Shown here: positions 10,494 to 29,462 of the stretch, in pieces
How positions within the stretch are numbered: position 1 is the first letter of the stretch
How the letters are laid out: every line of letters begins with the position of its first letter
Assembly: GCF_041435215.1 (NCBI RefSeq)
Contig: NZ_CP108394.1
Location: forward strand, 10,602,001-10,666,000
DNA from: Streptomyces sp. NBC_01314
Lineage (GTDB): Bacteria; Actinomycetota; Actinomycetes; Streptomycetales; Streptomycetaceae
DNA length: 64,000 nucleotides
Direction of reading: 5' to 3'
Notes under the pieces: model-generated
Database searches by the model: none
Told to the model about the DNA's origin: nothing
Seen by the model: only the letters and a program-made list of their open reading frames with translations
Position numbers and translations under genes: made by a program

Positions 10494-10507
10494 ATTACGT
10501 TCGCAAT
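10494..10507. promoter_or_regulatory. ATTACG-TT-CGCAAT, candidate TetR operator (site A1)
   Basis: Near-palindrome with one mismatch, 65 bp upstream of TetR-1. The same element (perfect ATTACG-TT-CGTAAT) occurs upstream of the MDR oxidoreductase at 17515 and, partly decayed, at 23955. It suggests autoregulation and a shared regulon. Confidence 0.55.
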
Positions 10508-10571
10508 ACCATAGACTGGTGAAGTCCGTGTAGGGCAACCGGTCTCTCCGGTCGGCAAAGGAGTGTGTGCT

Positions 10572-11162
10572 GTGGTGCGGTATGGAAAAGAGCACAAGTC
10601 GGCGACGAGGCGGCGGATCATCGAGGTGGCGGGCCGCCGGTTCAAGCAGGACGGTATCGACAGCTCCGGGGTCTCGACGCTCATGAAGGACGCGGGGCTG
10701 ACCAATGGGGCCTTCTATGCTCACTTCCAATCCAAAGATGACCTCGTCACCACGGCAATCGCCGACCAGTTGACGGTGCAGGCCGAGGATGTCGTCGCAC
10801 GGGCTGCGCCTGGCCGTGCCGGACTCGAGCAGATTGTGCGGGGGTACCTGTCGCCTCGGCACCGCGACAGCCTTGGCGATGGCTGTCCCAACGCCGCTCT
10901 GCTCGACGAGATCGGGCGTTGTGCCGATACGACCAGGCAGGCGTACACCGACGGCGTGCTGGTTCTCATCGACGGCATTGCCGCCCGCATGGTGCCTGAG
11001 GACCCGCCCTCCGCACGTGTGAAGGCGCTCAGCCTCCTCGGCCTGATGGCCGGGACACTGCAGCTAGCCCGCGCCTTGACCGACAGCCAACTCTCCAATG
11101 AGCTCCTCGATCAGGGGATAGACAACGCCCTGGCCCTGCTGGACGCCGGGCAGCGCGTCTGA
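10572..11162 (+). CDS. TetR-family repressor TetR-1
   Basis: 196 residues from GTG 10572, with AAAGGAG 9 nt upstream; GTGs at 10563 and 10575 are alternatives. The N-terminal helix-turn-helix reads TRRRIIEVAGRRFKQDG, GVSTLMKDAGLTNGAFYAHF and QSKDDLV. The ligand domain carries GYLSPRHRDSLGDGCPNAAL and GRCADTTRQAYTDG. It is closely related along its whole length to the TetR at 24452-25024 (both have YGKEHK/YAKEHK, FKQDGID, TNGAFYAHF, GYLSP, LLDEIGRCAD), so the two are paralogues. No adjacent target gene survives on either side, since the neighbours are pseudogenes. The operator-like sequence at 10494 is shared with distant genes. Confidence 0.85.
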   Translation: MVRYGKEHKSATRRRIIEVAGRRFKQDGIDSSGVSTLMKDAGLTNGAFYAHFQSKDDLVTTAIADQLTVQAEDVVARAAPGRAGLEQIVRGYLSPRHRDSLGDGCPNAALLDEIGRCADTTRQAYTDGVLVLIDGIAARMVPEDPPSARVKALSLLGLMAGTLQLARALTDSQLSNELLDQGIDNALALLDAGQRV

Positions 11163-11589
11163 CGCACCACATCCCCAGCCCCAGGCAGTGGCTCTCCATG
11201 ATTCTGCCCCGACGTCGAGATCGCCGGCTGGGGCGGGCGCCTTGCCGATGCCTCCGCGGCGATGCTCGACCGGCTCCCGCGCCGGCCGCACTCGTCGACA
11301 TCGACGGCCCCTCCCCTGCCGGCTCCGCAACCACCAGAACCAGGCCGAGATGCTGTGGAGTGGAGGGGACGTCCGTGTCGGATTCAGTGAGGACGACGAG
11401 TGGATGACGAGACGAGTGGATGGCCAGCAGGTGACGAGCAGATCTGGCCGAAGGCGAGAACCCTCATCAATGCCGCCAGGCCGTCCTGCTCCAGCGCGTC
11501 ACGTCCTACGCGAAGGGCGTGACCAACTGCATGCCGGACCGGTCGCTCCGGCCCGCAGTCGAACGGGACGATTCAATCCGAGCTGGTCG
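11163..11589. other. gene-free stretch with coding-like remnants
   Basis: There is no intact gene. Two short plus-strand stretches have codon bias but no start or recognisable family (DVEIAGWGGRLADASAAMLD near 11215, and QAVLLQRVTSYAKGVTNCMP near 11480). They are probably leftovers from the same decay that produced the next three pseudogenes. Confidence 0.35.
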
Positions 11590-11770
11590 GCGACACCGGA
11601 TCGGGTGCCGCTGCCAGGCTGAGTGAGGCGGCGCTCGGCCGATGTGGCAGCGGAGTCCGTTGCCGGTGTCGCGCAGGATCAGCAGCGTCCACAGCTCCCG
11701 TCACGTCGAGCGTGTGCTGGACCGGGCGGCTGTCCGTGCTCACCTCAAGGCTCACCTCAAGCCACTTCAT
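11590..11770 (-). pseudogene. decayed HxlR gene (second copy of 5681-6148)
   Basis: From an ATG at 11770: MKWLEV..., TDSRPVQHTLDVTG, a one-base frameshift, then ELWTLLILRDTGNGLRCH. This matches the first about 45 residues of the HxlR at 6148 (MEWLEASTENCPVQRTLDVI, GEKWTLLILRDAVNGVR). An internal duplication (VSLEVS) and loss of everything after the first helix confirm decay. The conserved N-terminal Cys is also lost (Arg). Confidence 0.75.
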
Positions 11771-11800
11771 CCCGCCACCACGGGGCTCCTGACTTCATTA

Positions 11801-11949
11801 TGGACACCGGCAAGGTCCGCGCCATCGGCACGGTCGTCAGCAGGGGGCGCCAAACCGCTCTCGCGCAGGCCCATTTGGTCGACGAGGCGGACCGCCTGCT
11901 CGCCCACGCCACCAGCACCTGCATGCTCTTTCCCATCTCCGCGCACTGA
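11801..11949 (+). pseudogene. C-terminal fragment of a PaaI-type thioesterase (second copy of 6253-6753)
   Basis: The frame DTGKVRAIGTVVSRGRQTAL, AQAHLVDEADRLLAHATSTC, MLFPISAH matches the last about 48 residues of the thioesterase at 6253 (ETGPVRAIGTVLSKGRQTAL, AQAQLVDAQGRLLAHATSSC). The first about 115 codons are missing. About 20 bp of the original divergent promoter, then the junction, separate it from the decayed HxlR gene. Confidence 0.8.
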
Positions 11950-12048
11950 ACCGAGACGGGCATGTTCGCGGCTCGCACGGGCAGCGCTCCCGACCGCGAC
12001 CTCGACCTCGGTTGACGGTCACATCACCGCACGTATGCATCACGGCAG

Positions 12049-12400
12049 GTGCTGGAACCGCTGGTCGACATGGGGATGTCCGCCCATCGACCGGTGCTCT
12101 TCGCCAATCTCGCCGGGCTCCTGGTCGGCCGCGGCGGGTTCGTGCTCGTGATCGGCGTGTCATATCTGGTCCAGATGGCGTCGAAGGTCGCGGGATACGG
12201 ATTCGACGCGACTGTGCTGCGTTCCTCGGTGGAGTACCTGTTGCCCAGCACCTGGCGTCGCTGCTCACCGCGCCGGTCGGCGGACAGTTGGTCCGCCGGC
12301 GCGGTCCGCGGGTGGTCCTGGCGCTGCCCTCGGCGAGCGGCACGGCGGTCAGCGGTGTCCTCCTGGCGCGGCAGGTCCTCGCAGCCTGCGACCGGGCACC
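12049..12400 (+). pseudogene. fragment of an MFS exporter
   Basis: LVDMGMSAHRPVLFANLAGL, LVGRGGFVLVIGVSYLVQM, YGFDATVLRSSVEYLLPS, a frameshift near 12245, then LASLLTAPVGGQLVRRRGPR and VVLALPSASG. This is the TM7-TM10 part of a 14-TM drug/metabolite exporter (PVLFANLAGLLVGxGM..., LxxSVEYLLPST..., GxxLVRRRGPR). Both ends are missing. Confidence 0.7.
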
Positions 12401-12833
12401 CCATCGAGTGCCGGCCTACGTCCCCCCCCATGCCTGAACATGCCCCTGCGGGGCCTCGTCACCCGCAAAGTGCTGTGCACCGGGGTCCCGGCGTCCTGGC
12501 GCACCCGGGCAGGGACGAGTTGCTCCGGCCTCGCGGGCTTCTCCCGGGGCGCGCAGGTCTTGGAGGAGGGGAGGGGTGAGCCGAAGCCGAGGAGGTGCGG
12601 CGATCGGGACCGGCGCGCCAGAGCGCCTTCAGGGCCGGCGCCACCTGACCTCCGTTTCGCGTTGGGTCTTCAGGCCGGGCCGATTCACGCCTCGTCCGGT
12701 CCCTTACGCGACGTGACGTCCAGATGGGGCGACCGTTCGTGACAGGGCCGTGAGATGGGTGGAGGCGTCCGCCTGCTCATGCCGCCGTGGCCGGATGGGC
12801 GAAGAGAGTGGGGCGAGGGCGCCACTCTTGTGA

Positions 12834-12908
12834 GTACGGTCATAATCTAAATTTTGTCAGGCCCTTGTTCGCAGGTCGACGCCCTGCTTATTGTCATACA
12901 GTCATAAT
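12834..12908. promoter_or_regulatory. two GGTCATAAT-type sites upstream of the GtrA-like gene
   Basis: GTACGGTCATAAT (12834-12846) and ATACAGTCATAAT (12896-12908) recur 62 bp apart in an AT-rich stretch 90-165 bp before the gene at 13000. The same core (GTATGGTCGTAAT) precedes the amidase and the SDR. The rest of 12401-12999 holds nothing recognisable. Confidence 0.45.
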
Positions 12909-12999
12909 GTAAAAGGTCAATGAGCATGCGGGCGCAGCATCCTGCCGGACCCGCCGGCCCCAGAGGCCCAGCAACTCTCTCAGTCGAAGGGGACTTCCC

Positions 13000-13584
13000 A
13001 TGAAGTCGCTGGTCTTGCCGAAGACGACGCCGGGGGCAGCGGACGAGGCGTGGGATGACGTACGGACGGACATCGATACGGCCGTGGCGCGACCGAACCC
13101 GGCCACCCCCGGCCCGCTCGCCTCCTTCGCCCGGTTCGTCCTCCTCGGCGGCGGTGTCGGGGTGGCGTCCAGCGGTGCCGTGGTCGAGCTCGCCGGACTG
13201 ATGCCCTGGGTGGTGGCGAATGCTCTGGTCACCGTCGCCTCGACGCTCCTCAGTACGGAGCTCCACGCGCGCTTCACCTTCGGGACAGGGCATGCCGGAT
13301 GGCGCCAGCACTGGCAGTCCGCCGGGTCGGCCACGGCCGCCTACGCGGTGACCTCCATCGCGGTGCTCGTCCTGCACCTCGTGCAGCCGTCGGCCGGAGC
13401 GCTCTACGAGCAGGTCGTCTACCTCACCGCCGCCGGGCTCTCCGGTGTCGGACGTTTCCTGGTGCTGCGTGTGTTCGTCTTCGCCGGTGGCCGGACCCGG
13501 CCCGCGGTGCGGGCAATGAGCCCGGCGCCGGCACGGGAAACGGGCGCCAAGGTGTCCCTGCTCTTCCCGGTTCCGGCGTTGTGA
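13000..13584 (+). CDS. GtrA-like polytopic membrane protein
   Basis: A 194-residue protein with GAAGGGG 7-8 nt before the ATG. After a hydrophilic N-terminus, four hydrophobic segments are visible at about residues 42-60, 66-88, 108-128 and 133-156. FARFVLLGGGVGVASSGAVV and NALVTVASTLLSTELHARFTF resemble the first two helices of GtrA proteins (RFxxVGxxxxxxxxxL ... NxxAxxxxxxxNFxxxRxWxF). GtrA members are thought to move or bind polyprenyl-linked sugars in cell-wall or surface glycosylation. There is no glycosyltransferase neighbour, so a pathway cannot be named. Its promoter carries two TetR-type sites shared with other modules here. Confidence 0.6.
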   Translation: MKSLVLPKTTPGAADEAWDDVRTDIDTAVARPNPATPGPLASFARFVLLGGGVGVASSGAVVELAGLMPWVVANALVTVASTLLSTELHARFTFGTGHAGWRQHWQSAGSATAAYAVTSIAVLVLHLVQPSAGALYEQVVYLTAAGLSGVGRFLVLRVFVFAGGRTRPAVRAMSPAPARETGAKVSLLFPVPAL

Positions 13585-14075
13585 GAAGCCGTCCGACAGT
13601 GTCTCCCTCGCCGATGACCGCAGACTTCAGACGCCGCAGACTTCAGATGACCGCCGGGCGGAATGCCGCTCTGTGGGAGGCCGCCGTCCGGGGAGAGACC
13701 GACAGCCCCCAGCCACAGGGTGGCCGTCGCCTCCCCCCAAGTCGGCCATGGACTGGCGGTGAGAACGCCGACGAGCCGGGCCCCTGGCACCTCGCCGCGG
13801 CGCTGGAAGCCGTGGGCAGACCCGACGAGGACGTGGCCCGACTGCTGGAAGAGTCGGCCCGCCGGTCCTGGGCGTGCGGTGGCTGTGCCACGGCGGCCCG
13901 TGCCTTGCGGCGCGCGGCGACGCTGTCCCCCAGACCGTCGCGGACTTCGCCGCCCGGTTCATCGAGGTATGGGTGCCGCGTGGGGTGCGCGCTTCAGCGC
14001 CGGCGCGGAGTTCCGGGGCTGCCCGGCCGGCTCGCCGATGCCCGGAGTGGATTCCTACCCCAGGGATGATCTCCT
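13585..14075. other. gap with short direct repeats, no recognised gene
   Basis: GCAGACTTCAGA occurs at 13620-13631 and 13636-13647 (16-bp period), flanked by two GATGACCG. Open frames exist downstream (for example EDVARLLEESARRSW, QTVADFAARFIEVWVPRGVR), but none keeps one frame with a start and a known family. It is possibly a decayed regulator or anti-sigma gene. I cannot assign it. Confidence 0.35.
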
Positions 14076-14690
14076 TCACGGCCCCTTGGGCAGGGTCAGC
14101 CGCCGAACCAGGTCCACCCAGGTGGCCTGGAGGCGCGCGGTGGCCACCCCGCGCTCCTTGCGCAGGTAGTCCGCCGCTTCGAAGCTCGTGAAGGCGAGAA
14201 GGGCGTGGGCGAGCATGTCGTGGTCCCCGTCAACCCCCGTCTCACGCAGGAGAGTTGAGACATGACCATGGATGGCCCGGCCGGTGTCCGAGGCGTTGCG
14301 GCGTGCGTAGGGCACCTGGCGTCCCAGCGCCGTGCCCAGGTCCGCGTCGGCGGCGATGCGCTCGAGCAGGGCGCAGCCGAACGCTGCCAGACGATCTCCC
14401 GCAGGCGCTCCTGGCCCCAGAGGAGGCGGACCTGAGGTATACACCTCCTGGAACTCCGCCTCGGCTTCGTCGAGGAGAGCGAGCAGGAGGCCGTCGCGGT
14501 CGCCGAACCGGCGAAAGAGCGTGCCTTTTCCTACGCCGGCCGCCTCGGCGACCTCCCGCATCGTCACATTCTCGACCCCCTGCTCGGCGATCAGTCGTCC
14601 GGCCGCTTCCAGCAGCCGGGAGCGATTGCGCGCGGCATCGGATCGCTCGGCGGTGACGCCGACCGATGTGTTGTTCGGTCTCTCCGTCAC
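14076..14690 (-). CDS. TetR-family transcriptional regulator
   Basis: A 204-residue protein. After a polar tail, the helix-turn-helix reads NRSRLLEAAGRLIAEQGVEN, VTMREVAEAAGVGKGTLFRRF and GDRDGLLLALLDEAE. The C-terminal ligand domain (LERIAADADLGTALGRQVPY, DHDMLAHALLAFTSFEAADYL) is of the type found with oxidoreductase or hydrolase targets. GCGTACAT is repeated at about 14716 and 14752 just upstream of the start and may be half-sites for autoregulation. The alpha/beta hydrolase upstream on the same strand (15011-15859) is the likeliest partner, but the 320-bp gap makes a shared transcript uncertain. Confidence 0.85.
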   Translation of the reverse strand: MTERPNNTSVGVTAERSDAARNRSRLLEAAGRLIAEQGVENVTMREVAEAAGVGKGTLFRRFGDRDGLLLALLDEAEAEFQEVYTSGPPPLGPGAPAGDRLAAFGCALLERIAADADLGTALGRQVPYARRNASDTGRAIHGHVSTLLRETGVDGDHDMLAHALLAFTSFEAADYLRKERGVATARLQATWVDLVRRLTLPKGP

Positions 14691-14872
14691 TGTTCACTCC
14701 CGTGATGTCGCGCGTGCGTACATCCACGCTTCCGTCCTGGATCTGCGCCTGGCGTACATGGACGGGAAGGCGGCTGAGGGGCGAGGGGGCCGGTCGGCGC
14801 GCAGGTCGTGACAGGAGCCACGTAGGGGCCCTCGGAGGTCCGGCGTCCACTGAGGGTTCACGCCGCCTGTAC

Positions 14873-14973
14873 TGGTCATGAGGCACCCGGGGTCAGCATC
14901 GGCTCCCGGCCCCGGGACGCCCGGCGGCGATGATCGCCACTCGGAGCAGGCGGTACCTCGCATGGTCATGAGG
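14873..14973. repeat. TGGTCATGAGG direct repeats in the TetR/hydrolase gap
   Basis: The 11-mer TGGTCATGAGG occurs at 14873-14883 and 14963-14973, exactly 90 bp apart, each followed by a GGCACC/TGCC-like trimer. The gap 14691-15010 otherwise contains no gene. It could be a looping operator pair. Confidence 0.4.
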
Positions 14974-15010
14974 TGCCGTCTGATTCGGTGTCAGGGGTCT
15001 GCCGCTCGAC

Positions 15011-17367: not shown

Positions 17368-17514
17368 CGTTCTCTCCGTATCTTGCTCGCAAGCGGACGG
17401 GCTGGGTGCGGTGCCCGGCGTTCACCTCGGCCGGCAGGGCTTTCGAGGGCCCGTCTTGCGTCATGGATGCCGTCGGTAGCCGGTGTGGTCAACGAAAGAT
17501 CCAAAGCCAGTTGA

Positions 17515-17528
17515 ATTACGTTCGTAAT
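17515..17528. promoter_or_regulatory. ATTACG-TT-CGTAAT perfect palindrome (site A2), candidate TetR operator
   Basis: Six-base arms around TT, 148 bp upstream of the MDR start, within TTGAATTACGTTCGTAAT. The first 13 bases TTGAATTACGTTC are identical at 23952-23964. A related site precedes TetR-1 at 10494. Confidence 0.6.
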
Positions 17529-17721
17529 ATTAAATGGTCGGCCGGTGGATGGCAAGTAAGCCCTCGTCTGTGAAGGTGCATCGCGCCTGGGGCGGAATCG
17601 GGGCATCAACGAGAAGCGCCCGGCCGCCGGGCCATCGCCCGCAAGGCCCCGCGACAGTCGGCTCTGTGGCGAGGCATGGGTGCGGTGTGGTGTGGTTTCA
17701 AGCAGTGCGCCCCGGCGGGGC

Positions 17722-17865: not shown

Positions 17866-18825
17866 TCAGTGCGTGGGGGACAGGGTGCCGCGGAAGGTGC
17901 GCCGGTAGGTGAGCGGGGAGACGCCGATGGCGGCGTGCAGGTGTTCTCGTAGCGATGTGCCGCCGGCGAAGCCGACTTGGCCGGCGATCTCGTCCACCGG
18001 CAGGTCGGTGGTTTCCAGGAGGTGTCGTGCGCGGTCGACGCGCTGCTGGATCAGCCAGCGTCCCGGGCTCATGCCCACCTCTTCGGTGAAGCGGCGGGCG
18101 AAGGTGCGCAGGCTCATGTGGGAGTGCTCGGCGAGGTCCGTCAGGGTCATGGGCTCGTGGAGGTTCTCCAGCGCCCACTGGCGGGCGGTGGCCGTTCCGC
18201 TGGCCGTGGCCTCGGGCACCGGGTGCTGGATGTACTGCGCCTGTCCTCCTTCGCGCCACGGGGGGACGATGCACATGCGGGCCACCTGATTGGCGACTTC
18301 AGTGCCGTGGTCCTTGCGAATGATGTGCAGGCAGACGTCGAGCCCGGAGGCGGCGCCGGCCGAGGTCAGCACATCTCCGTCATCGATGAACAGGACGTCG
18401 GGATCCAGTGCGACCTGAGGGAAGCGTGCGCGGAAGAGGTCCGCGACCATCCAGTGGGTGGTGGCCGGCCGACCGTCGAGGAGACCGGCTGCGGCAAGGA
18501 CGAAGGCGCCGGTGCAGATCGATACGAGGCGGGCGCCTGGAGCCACGGACGCGAGCACCTGGACCACGGCTTGCGGAGCTTCCCGGGTCACGGCGGTGGT
18601 GACGAAGGGCGGGATGATGACGGTGTCGGCGGTGTGCAGCACCTCCGGGCCGTGCTCGACGGTGATCGAGAAGTCGGAGTTGGTGCGGACCGGGCGGCCG
18701 TCGACGCTGCAGGTGAGAACCTCGTAACGGCCCACCGCCGCCCCGAATACCCGGCTGGGAATGCCCAGTTCGAAGGGGTACACACCGTCGATGGCCAGAA
18801 CGACGACTCGATGAATGGGCACCAT
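17866..18825 (-). CDS. GlxA-type AraC regulator (DJ-1/PfpI domain + AraC HTH)
   Basis: 319 residues from the ATG at 18825, chosen because the protein then begins with the DJ-1/PfpI domain (VVVLAIDGVYPFELGIPSRVFG). The open frame extends further upstream but is not protein-like. Residues 1 to about 190 are glutamine-amidotransferase-like, with SICTGAFVLAAAGLLDG (the Cys position of the fold) and ATTHWMVADLF. The C-terminus is an AraC helix-turn-helix pair: LTDLAEHSHMSLRTFARRFT, GMSPGRWLIQQRVDRARHLL, VGFAGGTSLREHLHAAIGVS. Such proteins activate catabolic or transport genes in response to small ligands. The OYE/amidase operon upstream on the same strand is a possible target. Confidence 0.85.
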   Translation of the reverse strand: MVPIHRVVVLAIDGVYPFELGIPSRVFGAAVGRYEVLTCSVDGRPVRTNSDFSITVEHGPEVLHTADTVIIPPFVTTAVTREAPQAVVQVLASVAPGARLVSICTGAFVLAAAGLLDGRPATTHWMVADLFRARFPQVALDPDVLFIDDGDVLTSAGAASGLDVCLHIIRKDHGTEVANQVARMCIVPPWREGGQAQYIQHPVPEATASGTATARQWALENLHEPMTLTDLAEHSHMSLRTFARRFTEEVGMSPGRWLIQQRVDRARHLLETTDLPVDEIAGQVGFAGGTSLREHLHAAIGVSPLTYRRTFRGTLSPTH

Positions 18826-19266
18826 GGCGTGATCCCGTCGAAAGTTGGAATTCAGGCCATGGTATCGGACCGTTACGGCAACGCGCAGCACGCGCAGCGT
18901 CGCCCTGTGCGCAACGGTCCTTTCGCCGAGCAACGGCGCCTTGGCCTTCCCGACGGGGACCCGGTGGGGTGGTCGCCGACACCTGACGTCTGCCGCGGAC
19001 GAGATTGCCGGCCATCCGGCAAGGGCCACGGCTCGGAGACCCGGATGGGCCGCATGATCAGCACCATGGGCAGGAGGACCCGAGGCGTTCACCGCGACCT
19101 TCAGCGAACCTGGGACCGGTGGTGAGGTCGCGCCGGGCCCAGCACGGTTCAGGCGACAAGCAGGTGCCACTGGGGTCGGTGGACAGTGCTGAGACGCTCC
19201 ATCGGGTAGCGCGGCCTGTCCCGAGCCGGGCTCAGCGTGGGCTCCGACCGTGGAAGCTGCAGGCGC
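18826..19266. other. gap with no recognised gene
   Basis: The stretch separates the OYE gene's stop from the GlxA start. Frames on both strands are long but lack protein-like composition. The promoter of the GlxA gene must lie within the first about 150 bp. No repeat or hairpin stands out. Confidence 0.4.
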
Positions 19267-20514
19267 TCATGACCCGCCACGCCTGGCGCGGAACGAGGTG
19301 CGCCCGTTCCGCCGAACCATTGCGAGGGTGGCTGCAAGGCTGCCGCGATTCAGGTCGGGCCGCAGGCCGTTCCCGAGGCGATGTATCTGGTCGGTGTGCC
19401 AGCTGATGTCCAGTACGCCGTCCAGGACCTTGAGGTCGGCGATTTTACCCAGCAGGGTCCTCATGCCGTAGCGCACCTGGTGTGCCGTGAGTGCGTCGGC
19501 CCGCCCTTCGAGGATGAGCCGGGCCGCGTCTGGTGTGGTGATCGTCGGCCGGCCGATGCCGACCACGTCGCATTCGCCGGCCTGTACGGCTCGCAGCATG
19601 GCATCGCGGGTGCGGAATCCGCCTGTGACGGCGAGGGGGATGTCGCCCACGCGCTTGCGAACCGTGCGGGCGTATTCCAAGAAGTACGCCTCGCGTGCCC
19701 TGGTGCTGGGGGCCGCCGAGCCACTCATGGCCATGGACTCGTAACTACCGCCGCTGACCTCGATGAGGTCGACGCCTTCGTGGGCGAGCGCGGCCAGCAC
19801 GGCCTGGGACTCGTCCTCGGTGAAGCCGCCCCGCTGGAAGTCCGCCGAGTTGAGTTTGACGCCCACCGCGAAGCCGGGCCCGACGCGGCCGCGGATGCGG
19901 CGGACGACCTCGAGGCCGAAACGCATCCGCCGCTCGAGATCGCCGCCCCAGTCGTCGTCGCGCCGGTTCGACAGCGGTGACAGGAACTGCGAGATGAGAT
20001 ACCCGTGGGCCGCTTGCACCTGTACACCGTTGAAGCCGGCTGTCTCGCACACGGCCGCGGCCGTGGCGAAGCGCTCGATGATCTCCTCGATCTCCGCGGG
20101 TCGCAGTTCGCGCGGCGTCGTGGCTCCGGGCAGTTTCGGCGGGACCGGGCTGGGGGCCACCGGCGTGTGTCCGAGTGCCAAGGGGTTGGCCTGGCGTCCG
20201 GGGTGGTTGAGCTGTGCCCAGATCGCACCGCCCGAGTCCTGGGCCGACTTGGCCCAGCGCGAGAGCGCGTCGAGATCACGCTCGTCCTCGATGACGATGT
20301 TGCCCGGTTCACCGAGCTGTGCGCGATCGACCATGACGTTGCCGGTGATCATGAGGCCGTAGCCGCCGCGGCTCCATGTGGAGTACAGACGGCCGAGGCG
20401 CCCGTCGGGGGCGTTGTTCTTGTTTCCCAGCGACTCGCTGAGTGCCGACTTCATGAGGCGGTTGGGCAGTATCTGGCCGTTCGGGAGAGTGAGGGGGGTG
20501 TCCAGCGTATTCAT
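19267..20514 (-). CDS. Old Yellow Enzyme-type NADH:flavin oxidoreductase
   Basis: A 415-residue TIM-barrel flavoprotein. FMN- and substrate-binding motifs include NRLMKSALSESLG, AQLNHPGRQ (101-108), GVQVQAAHGYLISQFLSP (His170, Tyr172), NRRDDDWGGDLERRMRF and DVVGIGRPTITTP. Catalysis is reduction of activated C=C bonds (enones, 2,4-dienoyl-CoA) with NAD(P)H via FMN. There is no Fe-S cluster motif and no C-terminal pyridine-nucleotide domain, so this is a single-domain class member. It starts 80 bp beyond the stop of the amidase on the same strand and probably shares its transcript. Together they could process an unsaturated amide or ketone. Confidence 0.88.
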   Translation of the reverse strand: MNTLDTPLTLPNGQILPNRLMKSALSESLGNKNNAPDGRLGRLYSTWSRGGYGLMITGNVMVDRAQLGEPGNIVIEDERDLDALSRWAKSAQDSGGAIWAQLNHPGRQANPLALGHTPVAPSPVPPKLPGATTPRELRPAEIEEIIERFATAAAVCETAGFNGVQVQAAHGYLISQFLSPLSNRRDDDWGGDLERRMRFGLEVVRRIRGRVGPGFAVGVKLNSADFQRGGFTEDESQAVLAALAHEGVDLIEVSGGSYESMAMSGSAAPSTRAREAYFLEYARTVRKRVGDIPLAVTGGFRTRDAMLRAVQAGECDVVGIGRPTITTPDAARLILEGRADALTAHQVRYGMRTLLGKIADLKVLDGVLDISWHTDQIHRLGNGLRPDLNRGSLAATLAMVRRNGRTSFRARRGGS

Positions 20515-22063: not shown

Positions 22064-22154
22064 GAAGGGCCTCGTTTCTGTATGCGCTGATTCGGCGGGA
22101 CCAGAGGCCGAGAGGGGGAGGTCCCCTGACGCCCCAAGGGCGAACGGTCATACT

Positions 22155-22167
22155 ATTACGACCATAC
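22155..22167 (-). promoter_or_regulatory. GTATGGTCGTAAT (site B), amidase promoter
   Basis: Read on the minus strand, this 13-mer is identical to 29396-29408 upstream of the SDR. GTAAT follows 9 bp from ATTAC to make a wider inverted repeat (22155-22173). It lies about 95 bp before the amidase start. Confidence 0.55.
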
Positions 22168-22171
22168 GGTA

Positions 22172-22672
22172 ATTTCTAGCCCTTCCCTCATGAAGTTCCG
22201 CGGCCGGGCGCCACTCGGGCCTTTCCGGAATCGATTGCGCCCGGAAGGCCCGCGACGGGCAGTCGCGCCAAGCGTGCGTGAGAGGTCGAAGAACGAAGCC
22301 CGGTCTGTGATCGCACGGGTCGAGACGGGGGAAGCCGTTTTTGTCCGTGCCGCTGGGCCGCCTTGCACCCAGCGATTGACGCGCAGTGGGCGCTGACAAG
22401 CCTCTGCGGCGGGATCGGATGCCAAGGCGTGGAGCCTGTTCACGGGGCCGTCGTGAGGTGATCGACGCGACCGCCGAGAAGGTGCAGACCGGATCGCAGT
22501 GGGTGCGCCTGCCACTGAGACGCGCAACTGGCGGGGCTCAGCCGGGGCTCAGCCGTCGGATGGCGGAGTGTTCGGACGCTGCGGGAGGCGCGCGGGATGG
22601 GCCGGGCATCCCATCGCGCCTCTGGTCCGGCGTCAGTACGGCGAATGTGAGGCCCGCTCCAGCGGCATCCGA
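22172..22672. other. gene-free gap
   Basis: Lies downstream of the alpha/beta-hydrolase at 22673 and upstream of the amidase promoter. No frame has both a ribosome site and protein-like content. No hairpin or repeat was noticed. Confidence 0.4.
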
Positions 22673-23548
22673 TCAAACTCGGGACTCGAGGAACCCGAGC
22701 GCCCTAGCGACGAAATCCTCGTGGTTCTGGAAGACCCCTCCGTGGCCGGAATCAGGATAGAGGGGGACGAGTTCGCTCTTGGGCAGACGGGCGGCCAGGT
22801 CGATCGTGTTCTGGCTGGGCACCATCCGGTCGTGGTCACCGTTTGCCACGAGGACGGGCTGGCGTACGGCCGACAGGTCTGACGGGGCCTGGCGGCCCCA
22901 TCGTTTGACGGCCTTCAGCTGGGCGCGGAGCGACGGCAGCGAGATGTCCTTGTCGCGGTTGTCCGTGCGCTCCTCCAGTCGTCGCAGGAGGGCGCGGCCT
23001 GCCTGTCGGCCGCTTGTGGTGTCGGTGAAGAAGAGGGAGAGTTTTGGGTCCTGGCGGGTCAGGGCGCCCTTGATCGTGGCCTGGATGGCGAGAGCCGGAA
23101 CCCTGTCGATGCCGTGGCCGCCCGCGGGACCGGTGCCCGCGAGGATGACCTTGCGGACGAGGTGTGGTTCTTCTTCCGCGACGACCTGCGCGATGAAGCC
23201 GCCCATCGACAGACCGAACAGATCGACCTGGTCGAAGCCGAGGGCCCGGATGAACCGCACCGCGTCGTGGGCCATCCCTTCGATCGTGTCCGGCGTGGAA
23301 CCGCCCGACCCGCCGACCCCGCGGTTTCCGAAGGTGATCACCCGGCGTCGTGCGGCGAGTCCGTCGACGACGCGCGGATCCCAGTTGTCCAGGTTCCCGG
23401 CCATGTGGATCAGGAGGATCAGCGGCACTCCGTCCTCGGGACCGAGCTCCCGGTAGACGAAGTCCATCCCGCCGACGGACACGGAGCGGGTCGGCGCGTT
23501 CTTGTGGCTCGATCGTGAGGGGGGCGGGGAGTTCCGCGGTGCGCTCAT
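22673..23548 (-). CDS. alpha/beta-hydrolase (paralogue of 15011-15859)
   Basis: 291 residues from ATG 23548. The open frame continues upstream through MDR remnants, but the fold starts at residue 20-25 (SVSVGGMDFVYRELGPEDGV). The nucleophile is in FGLSMGGFIAQ (Ser about 119), the acid in ANGDHDRM, and the His in DSGHGGVFQNHED. Unlike 15011-15859 it keeps a His in the oxyanion region (LLIHMAGNLDNWDP). Architecture and the neighbouring MDR remnant mirror the 15-17 kb pair, so this is the second copy of that module with the hydrolase still intact. Substrate unknown. Confidence 0.82.
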   Translation of the reverse strand: MSAPRNSPPPSRSSHKNAPTRSVSVGGMDFVYRELGPEDGVPLILLIHMAGNLDNWDPRVVDGLAARRRVITFGNRGVGGSGGSTPDTIEGMAHDAVRFIRALGFDQVDLFGLSMGGFIAQVVAEEEPHLVRKVILAGTGPAGGHGIDRVPALAIQATIKGALTRQDPKLSLFFTDTTSGRQAGRALLRRLEERTDNRDKDISLPSLRAQLKAVKRWGRQAPSDLSAVRQPVLVANGDHDRMVPSQNTIDLAARLPKSELVPLYPDSGHGGVFQNHEDFVARALGFLESRV

Positions 23549-23618
23549 GTCCAGGTCTTTCGTGTAGGTGGGTGTCGGGGCGGTCTCGTTGCCGGGGGAC
23601 CGGAGGGAATCGGGTTCT

Positions 23619-23910: not shown

Positions 23911-23954
23911 CATGGATGCCGGTGTGACTGGCACACCGGGCTCCGGCTGATTGA

Positions 23955-23968
23955 ATTACGTTCATCAT
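23955..23968. promoter_or_regulatory. ATTACG-TT-CATCAT, decayed site A3
   Basis: Shares TTGAATTACGTTC with site A2 at 17515, but the right arm has lost symmetry. It sits in front of the decayed MDR copy and could still serve the intact hydrolase 400 bp downstream. Confidence 0.45.
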
Positions 23969-24451
23969 TCTATGAGGTTGGTCAACGGCCCGCAAGGGGG
24001 CCCTGGCTCCCCGGTGTGTCATGTCTCGTGGCGGCGAGACGCCGGTCGGCGGCGCGGGCGCTTCGGTCATGCCCCGACATGGCTCACAGGTGACCCCGCC
24101 GCCTCCGGGCGGGCGGGCCGGGGCGTGGTCGCTGTGGCGGCCATGCTTCTGGTGGCCTCCTGTTCCAGGAGCAGTTTGTGACGGAAGCCCTCGACTTTCT
24201 TGAGGGGTAGCGGGTGAGGGCAGGGGCGGGCGGTATGCGCGCTGGGGACGTCGGTGGCTTCCCCGGCCCGGGTGGTCGACGCCCGTCGACCAGTCATGCG
24301 TGTCGGAGAGGCCACTTGACGAGTCCGAAGGGGCGGAGAGCGGCCATTACCCGGACGGACGGAAGGTTGTCGCATCCGGGTTCGGCTCAATGCCCTCGCG
24401 CATCGCCGGGCGGAGGTCGGCCACCAGACTGCTGCGACCCGGACGTTCCTC
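23969..24451. other. gene-free gap
   Basis: Lies between the TetR-2 stop and the decayed MDR promoter. Open frames on both strands look like shadows of GC-biased DNA. Nothing is supported. Confidence 0.4.
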
Positions 24452-25024
24452 TCAGGGCATGAACGTGCGGGCGTTCTCGATTCCCTGCTCGAGGACCTCG
24501 TCGGCGAACTTGCGGTCGGCGAGGGCGCGGGACAGTTGCAGTGTCCCCACCAGCATGGTGAAGAGCCCAATGGCCCTGCCGCGAGCGGACTGCGGATCCG
24601 CAGGCGCCAGACGAGCGGCGATCTCTTCCACGATGGCCGTCGCGCCCTCGGTGTACGCCTGCTTGGTGACGTCCGCGCAGCGGCCGATCTCGTCGAGCAG
24701 TGCGGCGGAGGGGCATCCGGTGCTGGGCCGGTCACGGTGCTCGGGCGACAGGTAGCCGCGAACGAAGTCCTCGACTCCCTGTCGGCCGGGCCGCAGAGTG
24801 TCGTACTTCTCCACCTGTGTGCGCAGTTCATCGGCGACAACGTTGGCGACGAGGTCGTCCTTGGAGGCGAAGTGGGCGTAGAACGCTCCGTTGGTGAGCC
24901 CGGCGTCGGCCATCAGTGTCGAGATGCCTGAGCCGTCTATGCCGTCCTGCTTGAATCGGTGGCCGGCCTTCTCGATGATCCGTTGCCGCGTCACCTGCTT
25001 GTGCTCCTTGGCGTAGCGCGCCAC
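24452..25024 (-). CDS. TetR-family repressor TetR-2 (paralogue of TetR-1)
   Basis: 190 residues from GTG 25024, with GGAAGGA 6 nt upstream. The helix-turn-helix reads TRQRIIEKAGHRFKQDGIDG, SGISTLMADAGLTNGAFYAHF and ASKDDLV. The ligand domain carries GYLSPEHRDRPSTGCPSAAL, LLDEIGRCADVTKQAYTEGA and VGTLQLSRALADRKFADEVL. The same blocks occur in TetR-1 (10572-11162), including the unusual YLSPxHRD motif, so both likely recognise similar DNA and perhaps related ligands. It lies between the MDR-remnant/hydrolase module and the CGNR regulator, with a GCGGTCATAAT-type half-site 73 bp upstream. Confidence 0.88.
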   Translation of the reverse strand: MARYAKEHKQVTRQRIIEKAGHRFKQDGIDGSGISTLMADAGLTNGAFYAHFASKDDLVANVVADELRTQVEKYDTLRPGRQGVEDFVRGYLSPEHRDRPSTGCPSAALLDEIGRCADVTKQAYTEGATAIVEEIAARLAPADPQSARGRAIGLFTMLVGTLQLSRALADRKFADEVLEQGIENARTFMP

Positions 25025-25096
25025 AGGGTTCCTTCCGTCGCGATGTAAGGCCGTTGCTTGGAATCCGAGTCCAGTCTCTTGCCTGGCGTAAATAAT

Positions 25097-25107
25097 ATTA
25101 TGACCGC
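25097..25107 (-). promoter_or_regulatory. GCGGTCATAAT half-site before TetR-2
   Basis: On the minus strand GCGGTCATAAT lies 73-83 bp upstream of the TetR-2 start in an AT-rich stretch (AATAATATTATGACC). It matches the GGTC[GA]TAAT core at 12834, 22155 and 29396. Confidence 0.45.
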
Positions 25108-25290
25108 GAGGTAATGTGAATCGTCTACGTGGGGCCGGCGGTACTGGCGAGACACCGCGGGTGCGTCGCGCACGTCGACGTCCGGATTCGCTGCGTACGA
25201 GGCCACCCGGTGCAAGCGAAGGACATCGAGAGCGTCCCCGGCCCAGCCTCTCGTACGAGTGCGCCCGAGTGAGCTGCGGAAAGTCCTGCG

Positions 25291-25896
25291 TCAGCTTTCC
25301 GTGATCCGGCCGCTCTGTCGTGTACGCGCCTGATGGAGGCGGACCTTGGTGCGGTTTCCGCAGCGGGACATGGAGCACCAGCGGCGGTTGCGGGCCGGAG
25401 AGCGGTCCAGGAAACGCAGCGCGCAGTGGTCCGCTCCGCAGACGCGTACGCGCCGGATCTCGGCGGACAGAAGCAGGTCGACGGCGTCCTGGGCGATGAG
25501 CGCCAGCGCGAGTGCGGGGTCGGCGGTGAGGGTCGTGGCGTCGGCGGGTTCCAGTCGGTCGTCGGTGATGACGAGTTGCAGGGTGGGTCTGGGGGCCGCC
25601 GCTGCCGAGCGGTTGAGCAGCGTCACGTCGCCGGATGTGGGCAGTCGGCCGTCGGCGACCGCCAGTACGGCCCGGTCGACGGTCTCACGCAGGTGCCGGG
25701 CGGACCCAAGAACGGCTGCCGTTGTGGGACCTGTGGACCCCGGTGTGAGCAGAAGGGCCTCCCGGAGCCAGCCCATCAGGTCGTCCGGTCCCCGGAGTGT
25801 CTCCTCCGGAGTGGTTCTCCACCGGCTTCGGAGAGTGTTGGCGAAGTCCAGGCAGACCCGTCCGCCATCCCAGATCCACAAGTCGTCCGTTGCCAT
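25291..25896 (-). CDS. ABATE/CGNR zinc-finger transcription regulator
   Basis: A 201-residue protein. The N-terminal about 120 residues form the ABATE domain (WIWDGGRVCLDFANTLRSRW, LMGWLREALLL). The C-terminal zinc-binding CGNR motif reads RVRVCGADHCALRFLDRSPA then RRWCSMSRCGNRTKV, with two Cys pairs. ABATE domains are thought to bind small ligands and CGNR fingers to bind DNA, so this is a single-ligand repressor or activator. It is divergent from the dehalogenase-like hydrolase at 25961, with 64 bp between and an inverted repeat in the gap. Control of that gene is the obvious inference. Confidence 0.88.
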   Translation of the reverse strand: MATDDLWIWDGGRVCLDFANTLRSRWRTTPEETLRGPDDLMGWLREALLLTPGSTGPTTAAVLGSARHLRETVDRAVLAVADGRLPTSGDVTLLNRSAAAAPRPTLQLVITDDRLEPADATTLTADPALALALIAQDAVDLLLSAEIRRVRVCGADHCALRFLDRSPARNRRWCSMSRCGNRTKVRLHQARTRQSGRITES

Positions 25897-25917
25897 GTCT
25901 CCATTCTGCCCGCTAGC

Positions 25918-25938
25918 CTAACCGTCTTAGGCGGTTAG
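25918..25938. promoter_or_regulatory. CTAACCG-N7-CGGTTAG inverted repeat, candidate CGNR operator
   Basis: Perfect 7-nt arms (25918-25924 and 25932-25938) around TCTTAGG, in the 64-bp divergent gap. The right arm ends 22 bp before the hydrolase ATG, so binding would block both genes. TTAG also repeats in the centre. Confidence 0.65.
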
Positions 25939-25960
25939 CTCATGTCAGGAAGGCGCACCC

Positions 25961-26833
25961 ATGGGACAGCCGACAGTGACAACCGGAGTGACACAGGTGG
26001 ACGGGGTCCGTCTGCACTATGTCCGGGCGGGATCCGGCCCTCTGCTCGTTCTGCTCCATGGCTGGCCGCAGACCTCCGACTGCTGGCGGCCGGTACTGGC
26101 GGATCTCGCCGCCGACCACACCGTTGTGGCGCCGGACCTGCGCGGATACGGCCTCAGCGACAAGCCCACCACTGGTTACGACAAGCGCCGGATGGCCGCC
26201 GACATGGCAGGCCTCGTCGAGGCGCTCGGCTTCGAGCGGGCCATGGTCGTGGGGCACGACCGCGGCGCTCGTGTGGGGCACCGCTGGGCGCTGGACCGTC
26301 CGGACCAGGTGGAGCGGCTGGCCGTGCTCGACATCGTTCCCACCCGGGAGATGTTCCGCCGCCTGGACGCCTCGCTCGCCTCCGGTTACTGGCACTGGCT
26401 GTTCCATATGCAGCCCGATCTGCCCGAGCGCCTGGTGGGGCACGACATCCGCGGGTATCTCGAGTACTTCTTCGAGCGGTGGACCTACAACCGCCACGGA
26501 CTCACGGCCGACGCGGTCGACGGTTATGTCCGTGCGTTCTCCCGCCCGGGCGCCCTGCGCGCGAGCCTCGACGACTACCGCGCCATGGAGGAGGACACCG
26601 CGCTCGACGACATCGACGCCGCCGAAGGCCACCGCCTCACCATGCCGCTGCTGGCGCTGTGGGGTTCCGCGGGGCTGCCTGCCCGCCTGCCGACACTGGA
26701 GATCTGGCGGGGCTACGCGGACGACGTCACCGGTGCCGAGATCCCGGAGTGCGGCCACTTCATCCCGGAGGAGCAACCGGAGGCGCTGTTGGCGCATCTG
26801 CGGCCTTTCCTGGCCGACAAGAAGAGCCGGTGA
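25961..26833 (+). CDS. fluoroacetate/haloacetate dehalogenase-like alpha/beta-hydrolase
   Basis: A 290-residue protein. The nucleophile elbow is GHDRGARVGHRWALD, with Asp (Asp100) rather than Ser. Relative to it, Arg101, Arg104, Asp124, His145-Trp146 and Trp174 fall at nearly the same spacing as the catalytic and fluoride-binding residues of the Rhodopseudomonas fluoroacetate dehalogenase (D110, R111, R114, D134, H155, W156, W185). The base His266 is in ECGHFIPEE and a Tyr is in DDYRAM. That set is characteristic of haloacetate dehalogenases, which hydrolyse C-F or C-Cl bonds. A plain epoxide hydrolase usually has HDWG and two lid tyrosines. It is divergent from a CGNR regulator and is followed by a terminator. 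Substrate unproven. Confidence 0.7.
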   Translation: MGQPTVTTGVTQVDGVRLHYVRAGSGPLLVLLHGWPQTSDCWRPVLADLAADHTVVAPDLRGYGLSDKPTTGYDKRRMAADMAGLVEALGFERAMVVGHDRGARVGHRWALDRPDQVERLAVLDIVPTREMFRRLDASLASGYWHWLFHMQPDLPERLVGHDIRGYLEYFFERWTYNRHGLTADAVDGYVRAFSRPGALRASLDDYRAMEEDTALDDIDAAEGHRLTMPLLALWGSAGLPARLPTLEIWRGYADDVTGAEIPECGHFIPEEQPEALLAHLRPFLADKKSR

Positions 26834-26971
26834 ACCCCCACGGTGATGGAGCGGCGCCCCTCAGCCGGTCGAGCGCCGGCCCGAGGGGCGCGATGTCCGA
26901 GGGGCCCTCGAACGCAGTGTGATGCCCGCATGGCGAGCGAGCCTGGACGGGCAGGACGGCAGGACGGGGCT

Positions 26972-27014
26972 GAGGGGCGGCGCGGCCTCGCCGTAACCGG
27001 CTGGGCCGCCCCTC
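26972..27014. terminator. bidirectional hairpin between convergent genes
   Basis: Ten-nt perfect arms GAGGGGCGGC/GCCGCCCCTC with a 23-nt loop, between the dehalogenase-like gene (+) and the MFS gene (-). Confidence 0.55.
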
Positions 27015-27024
27015 GGGCCGGGCT

Positions 27025-28476
27025 TCAGATCGCGACCGGGGCGCCCGCCGGACCATATCCTGCGGCAAGGTCGGCAGTCGGGCCGCCTGCTTTGCGCTGC
27101 CGGGGTATCAGCAACGCCAGGGCCGCGGCCAGGGCGACCGCACCGGCGCCGACCCAGAGCGCCGGGACCAGGCCGTCCACGAACAGTGAGGCGGACCCGT
27201 AGCCGCCCTGGGCGGAGAAGACCGCCGCCAGCGACGCGACGCCGATGGCGCCGCCGACCTCACGGATCGCGTTGTTGGCGCCGGAGGCGATGCCCTGCTC
27301 CTCCGGGCGGACCGTGCTCATGACGAGGTTCGCGCTGGGGGCGAAGAACATGCCCATGCCGATGCCGCAGACGATCAGGGCCGGCAGCAGAGCGGTGTAC
27401 GACACCTGCGGCTCGACGGCCAGTGCCCAGAGCCCGAGGCCCACCGCGTTCAGGGCCATGCCCACCATGACGACAGGGGCGCCGCCGATGCGGTCGGACA
27501 GTGCTCCGGCCAGTGGTCCGGCGATCATGGGCATGGCGGTCCAGGGCAGCATGCGCACGCCGGCCTCCATCGGCGAGTAGCCGCCGACGGTCTGCAGGTA
27601 CTGGCTGAGAAGGAAGATCGCCCCGAACATGCCCACGAACATCAGCAGGCTGGCCGCGTTGATGGCGCTGAAGGAGCGGTGGCGGAAGAGGCGCATCGGC
27701 AGCATCGGGTGCTTGGCGCGCAGTTCGTAGCGGACGAAGCCGACGAGCAGGGCGGCCCCCGCGATGAAGCCGCCCAGCACCGGGGTGCTGGTCCAGCCGT
27801 CGACGTTGCCGCGTATGAGGGCGTAGATGATGCCGAACAGACCGCCGCTGGCCAGGACCGTGCCGACAAGGTCGAGACTCGGGTTCGGGCCGCGGCTCTC
27901 GTCCAGCCGCAGCAGGGCCAGCGGCATCAGCGCCAGGCCGAGCGGGACGTTCACCCAGAAGATCCACTGCCAGGCGATGTGCTCGGTGAGTGCGCCGCCG
28001 ATCAGCGGTCCGGTGGCGACGGCGATGCCGCTGGCCGCGCCCCAGATACCCAAGGCGACACCGCGCCGCTCGGCCGGGACGGCCGCCGACAACAGGGTGA
28101 GTGTCAGGGGCGTCACGATCGCGGCTCCGACGCCCTGCGCGGCGCGGGCGGCGATCAGTTCACTCATTCCTGGGGCGAGGGCGGCCGCTGCGGAGGCGGC
28201 GGTGAAGATCGCGAGCCCGATGACGAACAGTCTTCGGCGGCCGAAGCGGTCGCCGAGGGAGGCGCCGAACATGAGCAGGACCGCGAAGGTGAGGGTGTAG
28301 GCGCTCACCGTCCATTCGAGGTCTTCGAGGCCGCCGCCGAGGTCCTCGCGGATGGAGGGGAGGGCGGTGGTGACGATCAGGTTGTCGAGCGCGGCGATGA
28401 ATCCGGCCGCGCTGGTGATGGCCACGGCCCAGATGGCGCTGCCGCGCCGAGCCGGTTGCTTGCGTTGCTGATCCAT
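27025..28476 (-). CDS. DHA2-family (14-TM) MFS drug exporter
   Basis: 483 residues from ATG 28476 (AAGGGA 8 nt upstream); the frame opens earlier but begins protein-like at MDQQRKQ. Motif D1 is ALDNLIVTTALPSIREDLG, motif A is GASLGDRFGRRRLFVIGLA, and motif C is ASGIAVATGPLIGGALTEHI. Fourteen hydrophobic segments can be counted. This EmrB/QacA branch exports drugs and dyes by proton antiport. The SDR (28593) lies 117 bp upstream on the same strand and may be cotranscribed, giving a modify-and-export module under the site at 29396. Confidence 0.9.
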   Translation of the reverse strand: MDQQRKQPARRGSAIWAVAITSAAGFIAALDNLIVTTALPSIREDLGGGLEDLEWTVSAYTLTFAVLLMFGASLGDRFGRRRLFVIGLAIFTAASAAAALAPGMSELIAARAAQGVGAAIVTPLTLTLLSAAVPAERRGVALGIWGAASGIAVATGPLIGGALTEHIAWQWIFWVNVPLGLALMPLALLRLDESRGPNPSLDLVGTVLASGGLFGIIYALIRGNVDGWTSTPVLGGFIAGAALLVGFVRYELRAKHPMLPMRLFRHRSFSAINAASLLMFVGMFGAIFLLSQYLQTVGGYSPMEAGVRMLPWTAMPMIAGPLAGALSDRIGGAPVVMVGMALNAVGLGLWALAVEPQVSYTALLPALIVCGIGMGMFFAPSANLVMSTVRPEEQGIASGANNAIREVGGAIGVASLAAVFSAQGGYGSASLFVDGLVPALWVGAGAVALAAALALLIPRQRKAGGPTADLAAGYGPAGAPVAI

Positions 28477-28534
28477 GAGGTTCCCTTGGCAGACGTACCT
28501 GGCGTGAGCAATGGATGTGGATGCCGGGGCGCGG

Positions 28535-28607
28535 CGTGCGATACCGAGCACCGGCATCCACCGGCTCGGTGCGGATTCCTGGCTGCCGGACCTCAGGGGA
28601 GCTGCGG
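28535..28607. repeat. about 73-bp repeat, copy 2 (other copy 16143-16213)
   Basis: Covers the last codons of the SDR and its 3' flank. Shares CCGAGCA.CGGCATC, CGGTGCGGATTCCTGGC and GGGAGCTGCGG with copy 1. Confidence 0.65.
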
Positions 28608-29291
28608 GTAGAGCACGGAAACGCCTCCGGCCAGTGCGGCCTGTGCCTGGCGGGCGGCGTTGTCCGCGAGGATCTCGTAGGCGCCGGCGGCGATGCCGTC
28701 GACGGCGATTCGGGCGATGTCGGCGGGGTCGGACTTGGCCGCGTCGACGGTCCGGACCATGTCGGTGTCCATGTAGCCGACGTGCAGGCCGGCTACGCGG
28801 ATGCCCTGGGCGGCGAGTTGCTGGCGCAGGGCGTTGGTGAGCGACCACTGAGCGGACTTGGCGGCGCAGTACGCGCCGAATTCCGGGAAGCTGACCCAGG
28901 ACAGGCCGGACAGGATGTTCAGGATCGCTCCCCCGCCGTTGGCGGCGATCTGGGGTGCGAAGGCGCGGGCCACCGAGAGGGTGCCGAAGTAGTGCGTGTC
29001 CATCTCCAGGCGGATGTCGTCCAGGTCCGCGGTGAGCAGGTCGGCGCCGGTGGAGGACCCCGCGTTGTTGACCAGGACGGTCACGTCGCCGGTGACTGCG
29101 GCGGCGGCCGCGACGGAGGCGGGGTCGGTGATGTCGAGCGCGATCGGCTTGGCGCCGGGCAGGTCGACATGGTCGGGGTTACGGGCGCCGGCGTAGACGG
29201 TGGCGCCACGGCTGAGCAGTTCGGCCGCGAGGGCCCGGCCGAAGCCCCGGTTGGCTCCGGTGACAAGGGCGGTGCTGGTGGAGAGGTCCAT
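28593..29291 (-). CDS. short-chain dehydrogenase/reductase (SDR)
   Basis: A 232-residue classical SDR. The cofactor motif is VTGANRGFGRALAAEL, the structural motif is VLVNNAGSS, and the catalytic Ser/Tyr/Lys set is NILSGLSWVSFPEFGAYCAAK. There is no Arg after GARNP that would fix NADP preference with certainty. The length is standard for the family. The gene precedes the MFS exporter on the same strand. A GTATGGTCGTAAT site lies 105 bp upstream of the start. The substrate is unknown; carbonyl reduction of a xenobiotic before export would fit the context. Confidence 0.87.
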   Translation of the reverse strand: MDLSTSTALVTGANRGFGRALAAELLSRGATVYAGARNPDHVDLPGAKPIALDITDPASVAAAAAVTGDVTVLVNNAGSSTGADLLTADLDDIRLEMDTHYFGTLSVARAFAPQIAANGGGAILNILSGLSWVSFPEFGAYCAAKSAQWSLTNALRQQLAAQGIRVAGLHVGYMDTDMVRTVDAAKSDPADIARIAVDGIAAGAYEILADNAARQAQAALAGGVSVLYPQLP

Positions 29292-29395
29292 GGAGAGTTC
29301 CTGGTGAAGTGGGTGTTCCCGGGCAGCCGCAGAGCGGGCCGTCGGACCGGAAGGGGGATCTGGGTCATCGGCTGAGAGGGCCCGGATCCATTAAA

Positions 29396-29408
29396 GTATG
29401 GTCGTAAT
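29396..29408 (+). promoter_or_regulatory. GTATGGTCGTAAT (site B), SDR/MFS promoter
   Basis: Identical 13-mer to the amidase-promoter site at 22155, lying 105-117 bp upstream of the SDR start within AT-rich DNA (TTAAAGTATGGTCGTAATGT). Confidence 0.55.
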
Positions 29409-29462
29409 GTTAACGGGGCCGAGTCGGTGGTCGCAAGGGCTCTGTGCGGAGCGGGGGAAACG

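Follow-up and report, generated by a model that had tools for sequence, protein, structure and literature searches.

Why should one short palindromic element recur in front of genes that otherwise appear unlinked? This question is raised by a 64-kb stretch of Streptomyces sp. NBC_01314 (positions 10,602,001-10,666,000 of contig C1; 69% G+C; genome of 11.35 Mb in two contigs), hereafter called the window, which encodes two TetR-family proteins, TetR-1 and TetR-2. A preliminary description of the sequence had listed eight elements in two families and assigned them to one regulon of about 19 kb. All eight elements are present where it placed them. They represent a common operator that is conserved among relatives, is linked to the TetR subfamily that includes TetR-1 and TetR-2, and is found at further places in the genome. 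We consider it very likely that all eight represent a single operator to which this subfamily binds; it would thereby repress its own genes together with a scattered set of others.

The eight operators, none of which is assigned to a strand, are given below with their scores from M24, a matrix built on 100 sites from relatives, and in one case from a second operator model, R1.

10489 to 10512: operator TTTGGATTACGTTCGCAATACCAT, TetR-1 promoter; 27.9
12828 to 12851: operator, outer copy of the pair before the GtrA-like gene; 28.4
12890 to 12913: operator, inner copy of the pair before the GtrA-like gene; 25.3
17510 to 17533: operator, MDR promoter, overlapping a TAATAT -10 box; 33.3
22150 to 22173: operator, promoter of the amidase and old yellow enzyme (OYE) genes; 27.5 (R1 in the window, 9.4 bits, E 0.14)
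23950 to 23973: operator before an MDR remnant and hydrolase 2; 33.5
25092 to 25115: operator, TetR-2 promoter; 21.9, the lowest of the eight
29390 to 29413: operator, promoter of the short-chain dehydrogenase (SDR) and MFS genes; 33.1

These sites stand out sharply from the rest of the window. The pentamer GTAAT occurs nine times on either strand, with eight occurrences inside six of the eight sites and the ninth, at 24350, outside all of them. M24 scores the sites at 21.9-33.5, and the best unrelated place (35655) reaches 10.8; two intermediate scores, 15.3 at 25078 and 14.4 at 22136, both adjoin operator sites. At a threshold of at least 20, there are eight matches in the window versus none in 100 windows of 64 kb of Markov-1 sequence with the same dinucleotide composition, where the highest score was 16.6. 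A symmetric 22-bp matrix, M2, was trained on 20 sites found upstream of TetR genes among 28 non-redundant relatives (L082-L127), with both the window and the TetR-1 clade excluded; its seed consensus was entered by hand after viewing the upstream DNA of relatives. With M2, all 14 window positions scoring at least 10 fall inside the eight sites, compared with a chance rate of 0.75 such positions per 64 kb (60 random windows) or 0.52 (100 windows).

The operator is also found at the promoters of related regulators. We examined 79 loci of TetR-1/2 relatives (from the best 80 of 171 confirmed), which are mostly from Streptomyces. An element closely similar to the TetR-1 operator precedes most TetR-1 orthologues (L049-L081). 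Of 37 non-redundant relatives, 29 have a site ahead of their TetR gene, as judged by a matrix trained on those same sites. Alignment of the sites yields a 24-bp palindromic consensus, ATTGnATTACGATCGTAATnCAAT, to which the individual window elements conform as near-palindromes. One alignment held 128 non-redundant sites, including seven from the window, anchored on the stronger half; another held 54 of 75 relatives' sites in both orientations (108 rows). Within the window, this palindromic operator is likewise found both at the regulators' own promoters and at target promoters.

Where the operator sits relative to promoter boxes points to its likely role. Among 115 non-redundant relatives' sites, each read in both directions (230 readings), TTG[CA] occurs 61 times at offsets of -26 to -22 relative to the operator (13, 9, 9, 6, and 24 at the successive positions), whereas between -58 and -27 no single offset has more than 5 (range 0-5). 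Further peaks are minor, at -10 (11), +6 (8), and +23 (9), except for one at +1 (41), which is large and represents the TTG within the operator arm itself. The peak at -26 to -22 corresponds to the position of a -35 box, which would place the -10 box inside the outer arm of the operator. Boxes read by eye on the minus strand of the window are TTGCCA-N17-TAATAT (MDR promoter), TTGCGG-N17-TAGAAT (23950 site), and TTGCGA-N18-TAACAT (SDR promoter); no such box was found at the amidase site. Because the operator overlaps or adjoins -10 and -35 boxes, repression by TetR-1 and TetR-2 is implied, and their paralogues probably act as repressors at these sites as well.

Two 22-bp palindromes offset by 8 bp can be fitted over the operator at all eight window sites (the eighth being 25089/25097), which suggests that two dimers bind one operator. 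Operators also occur in pairs 62 or 63 bp apart. There are 16 such pairs in the 79 relatives' loci, many of these from close relatives, and one in the window (12828 and 12890, 62 bp apart). This spacing of about six helical turns was seen in L109, L116, L118, L120, L122-L124, L126, L127, and other loci, and several of the pairs sit between divergent genes. Such spacing may reflect shared -35 regions or cooperative binding. We rejected a divergent partner gene to the left of the window pair, where the DNA is similar between relatives and carries no established conserved gene.

The two regulators are as follows.

10563 to 11162, plus strand: TetR-1, TetR-family repressor of 199 amino acids; Pfam PF00440, 37.2 bits (cut-off 24)
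24452 to 25024, minus strand: TetR-2, TetR-family repressor of 190 amino acids; Pfam PF00440, 33.8 bits (cut-off 24)

Both proteins carry a TetR_N helix-turn-helix domain. They were described earlier as paralogues with matching recognition helices, and indeed they are 61% identical and have the stretch DAGLTNGAFYAHF in common. In the mechanism that we propose, members of this subfamily would bind the 24-bp operator, perhaps as two dimers, and a repressor bound over the -10 and -35 boxes would block RNA polymerase by promoter occlusion. TetR-1 and TetR-2 would thereby repress their own genes and those for MDR and hydrolase 1, the amidase and OYE, hydrolase 2, the SDR and MFS proteins, and the GtrA-like protein, until a small molecule releases the repressor. 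The putative targets are listed below.

13000 to 13584, plus strand: GtrA-like membrane protein (tentative); Pfam GtrA_DPMS_TM, 22.4 bits
15011 to 15859, minus strand: alpha/beta hydrolase 1; Pfam PF00561
16363 to 17367, minus strand: MDR, a quinone oxidoreductase-like zinc-binding-type dehydrogenase; Pfam PF13602/PF08240
19267 to 20514, minus strand: OYE, a flavin oxidoreductase of the old yellow enzyme family; Pfam PF00724, 166.2 bits
20594 to 22063, minus strand: amidase; Pfam PF01425, 355.3 bits; NF004816, 613.4 bits (cut-off 503)
22673 to 23551, minus strand: alpha/beta hydrolase 2, the first intact gene behind the 23950 operator; Pfam PF00561, 94.4 bits
23626 to 23911, minus strand: broken remnant of a second MDR gene, between the 23950 operator and hydrolase 2
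27025 to 28476, minus strand: MFS exporter of the DHA2/EmrB type; TIGR00711, 311.7 bits (cut-off 230.2)
28593 to 29291, minus strand: SDR; NF006119, 320.1 bits (cut-off 249)

Some of these assignments amend the earlier ones. The site near 23955 is genuine, but the MDR copy that it was thought to serve is not intact: separate fragments of the remnant are 53-87% identical to MDR in protein and 82-84% in DNA, and hydrolase 2 follows. The operators before the GtrA-like gene also stand, whereas the GtrA label is weak, its score lying below the cut-off of 26.1 bits; five homologues of this gene were found behind sites in relatives. MDR scores 204.5 bits with a PIG3-like model, below the cut-off of 296.8. 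Hydrolase 1 is presumably co-transcribed with MDR, downstream of which it lies on the same strand. Four proteins submitted to PADLOC gave no match.

Similar genes lie behind the operator in relatives. In the 79 loci, 250 places score at least 13; 27 of these have no downstream frame assigned, several through over-extended frames. With up to two adjacent frames counted per site, and with several cluster names resting on one representative each, the downstream frames in the clusters listed comprise TetR (72, plus 5 more distant), SDR (41, plus smaller clusters of 8, 5, and 2), alpha/beta hydrolases (40), MDR (12), OYE (11), GtrA (5), SnoaL-like proteins (4), HxlR (4), a resolvase family (4), and amidase (1), along with two clusters of 2 that have no family name. 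One-member clusters, some of which are probably spurious frames, were excluded from interpretation. We regard the genes downstream of these sites as candidate targets, since position is no proof of regulation.

What might release the repressor? Cys108 is present in all 105 aligned proteins, including TetR-1 and TetR-2 (matches of at least 55% identity, without stops), and Cys120 in 92 of them. An invariant cysteine, taken together with OYE, quinone oxidoreductase, SDR, and exporter-type targets, makes a reactive-electrophile signal plausible. Our first guess is that the inducer would be a thiol-reactive or enone/quinone-type compound acting via Cys108. It is also quite possible that the system responds to one particular natural product or hormone (butenolide-like) rather than to electrophiles in general. 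Among NCBIfam models, the ScbR autoregulator receptor family NF041196 matches both TetR proteins best (53.1 and 53.0 bits), which favors such a ligand; however, these scores are below the cut-off of 150, the match covers the N-terminal part alone (residues 14-93 and 11-78), and the targets appear to resemble detoxification enzymes. The CurR repressor of Pseudomonas (NF058643) scored 28 bits with both proteins, below its cut-off of 300.

A further question is whether the elements serve one regulon or two. The sites of both families in the preliminary description are real, and its identical 13-mer at 22155 and 29396 is correct. Likewise, the palindrome at 17515 has perfect 6-bp arms, ATTACG and CGTAAT, on either side of a 2-base center. 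The division into families did not hold, however: there is one 24-bp operator with either a GTTC or a GGTC center, and the split was ruled out because M24 covers both as a single matrix. One might still propose that TetR-1 reads GTTC-centered sites and TetR-2 reads GGTC-centered ones, in keeping with the mostly GTTC-type TetR-1 promoters of the Streptomyces clade, the GGTC center of the window TetR-2 promoter, and the mostly GACC/GGTC centers of relatives' hydrolase-2 sites (22 of 36). We find this arrangement unlikely. The two proteins have the same recognition-helix stretch, TetR-1-like genes of Lentzea and Kutzneria have upstream sites with GRYC-type centers, and GTTC-type and GRYC-type centers occur together in 34 of the 79 loci. 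Of these mixed loci, 20 have no TetR-2-like gene (>60% identity) in the fetched stretch, although one could be elsewhere in the genome.

The view that one regulon is linked to both TetR genes is supported by operators upstream of TetR relatives in other genera, by co-occurrence (see below), and by the same gene families elsewhere, but its earlier span of about 19 kb is too narrow. The genome encodes five members of the TetR subfamily, namely the two in the window and others at 670435, 6785178, and 11077106. The paralogue at 670435 has a weak upstream site (18.4), and SDR genes a few kilobases from the other two are preceded by sites scoring 22.2 and 23.7. A genome scan with a motif model, as had been foreseen, returned further sites before SDR, hydrolase, and SnoaL-like genes. 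Using R1 up to E 10, with 150 of 456 candidates scored, ten places were found, five of them in the window. Sites elsewhere precede an SDR gene (6754512), an alpha/beta hydrolase gene with an MFS gene further on that is 89% identical to that of the window (9488359), another hydrolase gene (2626637), and a SnoaL-like gene (11191794); a similar site at 136642 has no clear target. The sites at 136642 and 11191794 carry almost the same operator variant and lie near opposite ends of the contig. A degenerate pattern with at most two mismatches gave 18 matches, distributed over 11 places (six inside the window, and one at 575908), and the reversed pattern gave 1 match. Given the five subfamily members and these further sites, the regulon is not confined to 19 kb. 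Separately, two more distant TetR genes of this genome (L133 and L134, near 520428 and 2616887) have related upstream palindromes scoring 19.4 and 22.5, e.g., TTTAGATTACGGTAACTATCTAAA, hinting at a wider operator superfamily.

We then consider the distribution of operator and regulator across 246 genomes of the genus. R1 (E at most 0.02, strict filters, up to 32 candidates scored per genome) matched in 13 genomes, and the TetR subfamily (E 1e-60) was found in 30, including all 13 with the operator. The hypergeometric probability of this co-occurrence is 8.5e-14, phylogeny ignored. All 15 loci fetched by R1 alone (14 regions, as L159 overlaps L170) carry TetR, SDR, MDR, or hydrolase homologues within 3 kb, and in L158 and L161 the SDR-MFS order is as in the window; such neighbors are partly expected because R1 was trained on promoters of genes of this kind. 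A strict 19-base pattern has two matches in this genome, whereas 120 further genomes from the genus have none.

Several observations weigh against a single regulon of this subfamily. R1 run on the window alone missed the 12890 and 25092 sites, and its matches in the whole genome lack these two and the 22150 site. Eight of the 37 relatives have no site within 250 bp upstream (L125, L114, L110, L100, L097, L094, L089, and L082), and the paralogues at 6785178 and 11077106 have none scoring at least 14 directly upstream. Under the genus survey settings, 17 of the 30 genomes with the TetR subfamily, including the one studied here, gave no operator. Many operator matches adjoin a TetR gene, so the co-occurrence test is strongest for autoregulation. 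The training of M24 and R1 took in relatives with genes syntenic to those of the window, which makes these models less independent than M2. Loosening the strict 19-base pattern to three mismatches gave 212 matches versus 88 for the reversed control; this search was too unspecific and was dropped.

Other regulators (TetR-3, an AraC-like protein, and TetR-4) are encoded within the same stretch, so another protein might bind the sites and have the TetR genes merely among its targets. This is very improbable, since within the capped genus survey all 13 operator-positive genomes carry the TetR subfamily, most relatives have a site upstream of the TetR gene itself, and by coordinates the starts of the TetR-3, AraC-like, and TetR-4 genes are free of all eight operators. 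It is hardly credible that the repeats arose through the spread of duplicated promoter DNA, or as mobile elements, and are devoid of regulatory meaning: the MDR remnant is a duplicate with a related promoter and the MFS gene has a counterpart of 89% identity elsewhere in the genome, but the operator is kept inside otherwise diverged promoters in several genera and -35-like boxes lie at a preferred distance from it.

A group of actinobacterial TetR genes can now be given a common operator, a place in one regulator subfamily, and a set of targets. The prediction is simple: many genes for oxidoreductases and hydrolases would be silenced by repressors of a single subfamily. With the operator, regulon members can be listed in other genomes, and a reporter built on it can serve in a search for the inducer. 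A more ambitious reading, which we put forward as a doubtful but possible extension, is an actinobacterial electrophile-response network in which a family of paralogous TetR repressors (five of them encoded here), each with an invariant effector-domain cysteine, act jointly through one 24-bp double-dimer operator on many scattered, repeatedly duplicated detoxification modules, with operator pairs 62-63 bp apart at some promoters.

Other features of the window were judged by eye. Regulator-like genes besides TetR-1 and TetR-2 are interspersed in the region at 14076-14690, 17866-18826, and 30663-31238; two are TetR-like and one is AraC-like, and their starts carry none of the eight operators. 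Two adjacent open reading frames of 296 amino acids on the plus strand (7757-8647 and 8823-9713) resemble paralogous NAD(P)-binding dehydrogenases.

The system belongs to a well-known type, the TetR autorepressor regulon, and this particular regulon is apparently undescribed. Among the matches listed in open-licence papers, there was no description of it, and of the papers listed there for ATTACG/CGTAAT together with TetR and Streptomyces, no title was relevant; strings of the operator core occurred solely in papers unrelated by title. As far as the consulted parts of these sources go, the operators of SCO7222 and six other streptomycete TetR regulators (PMC3511530) do not match by eye, and the allicin-resistance islands of Pseudomonas (PMC7119367) have gene types alone (tetR, sdr, oye) in common with the window. 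Streptomyces avermitilis has two similar, autoregulating TetR-family regulators, SAV576 and SAV577, and is in this respect like the present strain; in the available portions of the reports (PMC3742746, PMC4051647), the operator, CCRTACRVYGTATGS, is 15 bp long and the targets lie adjacent (a cytochrome P450/NADPH-ferrihemoprotein reductase gene), both unlike the window. CssR of Corynebacterium glutamicum is another actinobacterial TetR-family autorepressor with a palindromic operator and stress-linked targets; according to the part of PMC8176726 consulted, that operator is a 25-bp imperfect palindrome of different sequence, it is the sole binding site, and the cysteines are reported to have no redox role. 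This last point is a warning against assuming cysteine sensing here.

The NemR-nemA-gloA system of Escherichia coli also relies on a TetR-family repressor. NemA is a reductase of the old yellow enzyme family. The nemR gene lies beside the OYE-glyoxalase operon, whereas in the window some 4 kb separate the OYE gene (19267-20514), itself behind the amidase gene, from TetR-2, and no glyoxalase was present among ten window proteins scanned, the rest of the genome not having been searched for one. The target set and layout are unlike those of the window. Homology to NemR is detectable (33.6 bits with PDB 4yze, profile positions 6-139 aligning with 5-143 of the chain); a profile from a fragment did not recover it. 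The sensor cysteine of NemR is Cys106, of which Cys108 may be the counterpart. Its regulon includes NemA, and cysteine sensing is described in the part of PMC7464077 consulted. The closest solved structure by sequence is PDB 2fd5, which matches over nearly the full length with 91.9 bits and has a GCP motif in common with the TetR proteins described here. This protein is from Pseudomonas aeruginosa.

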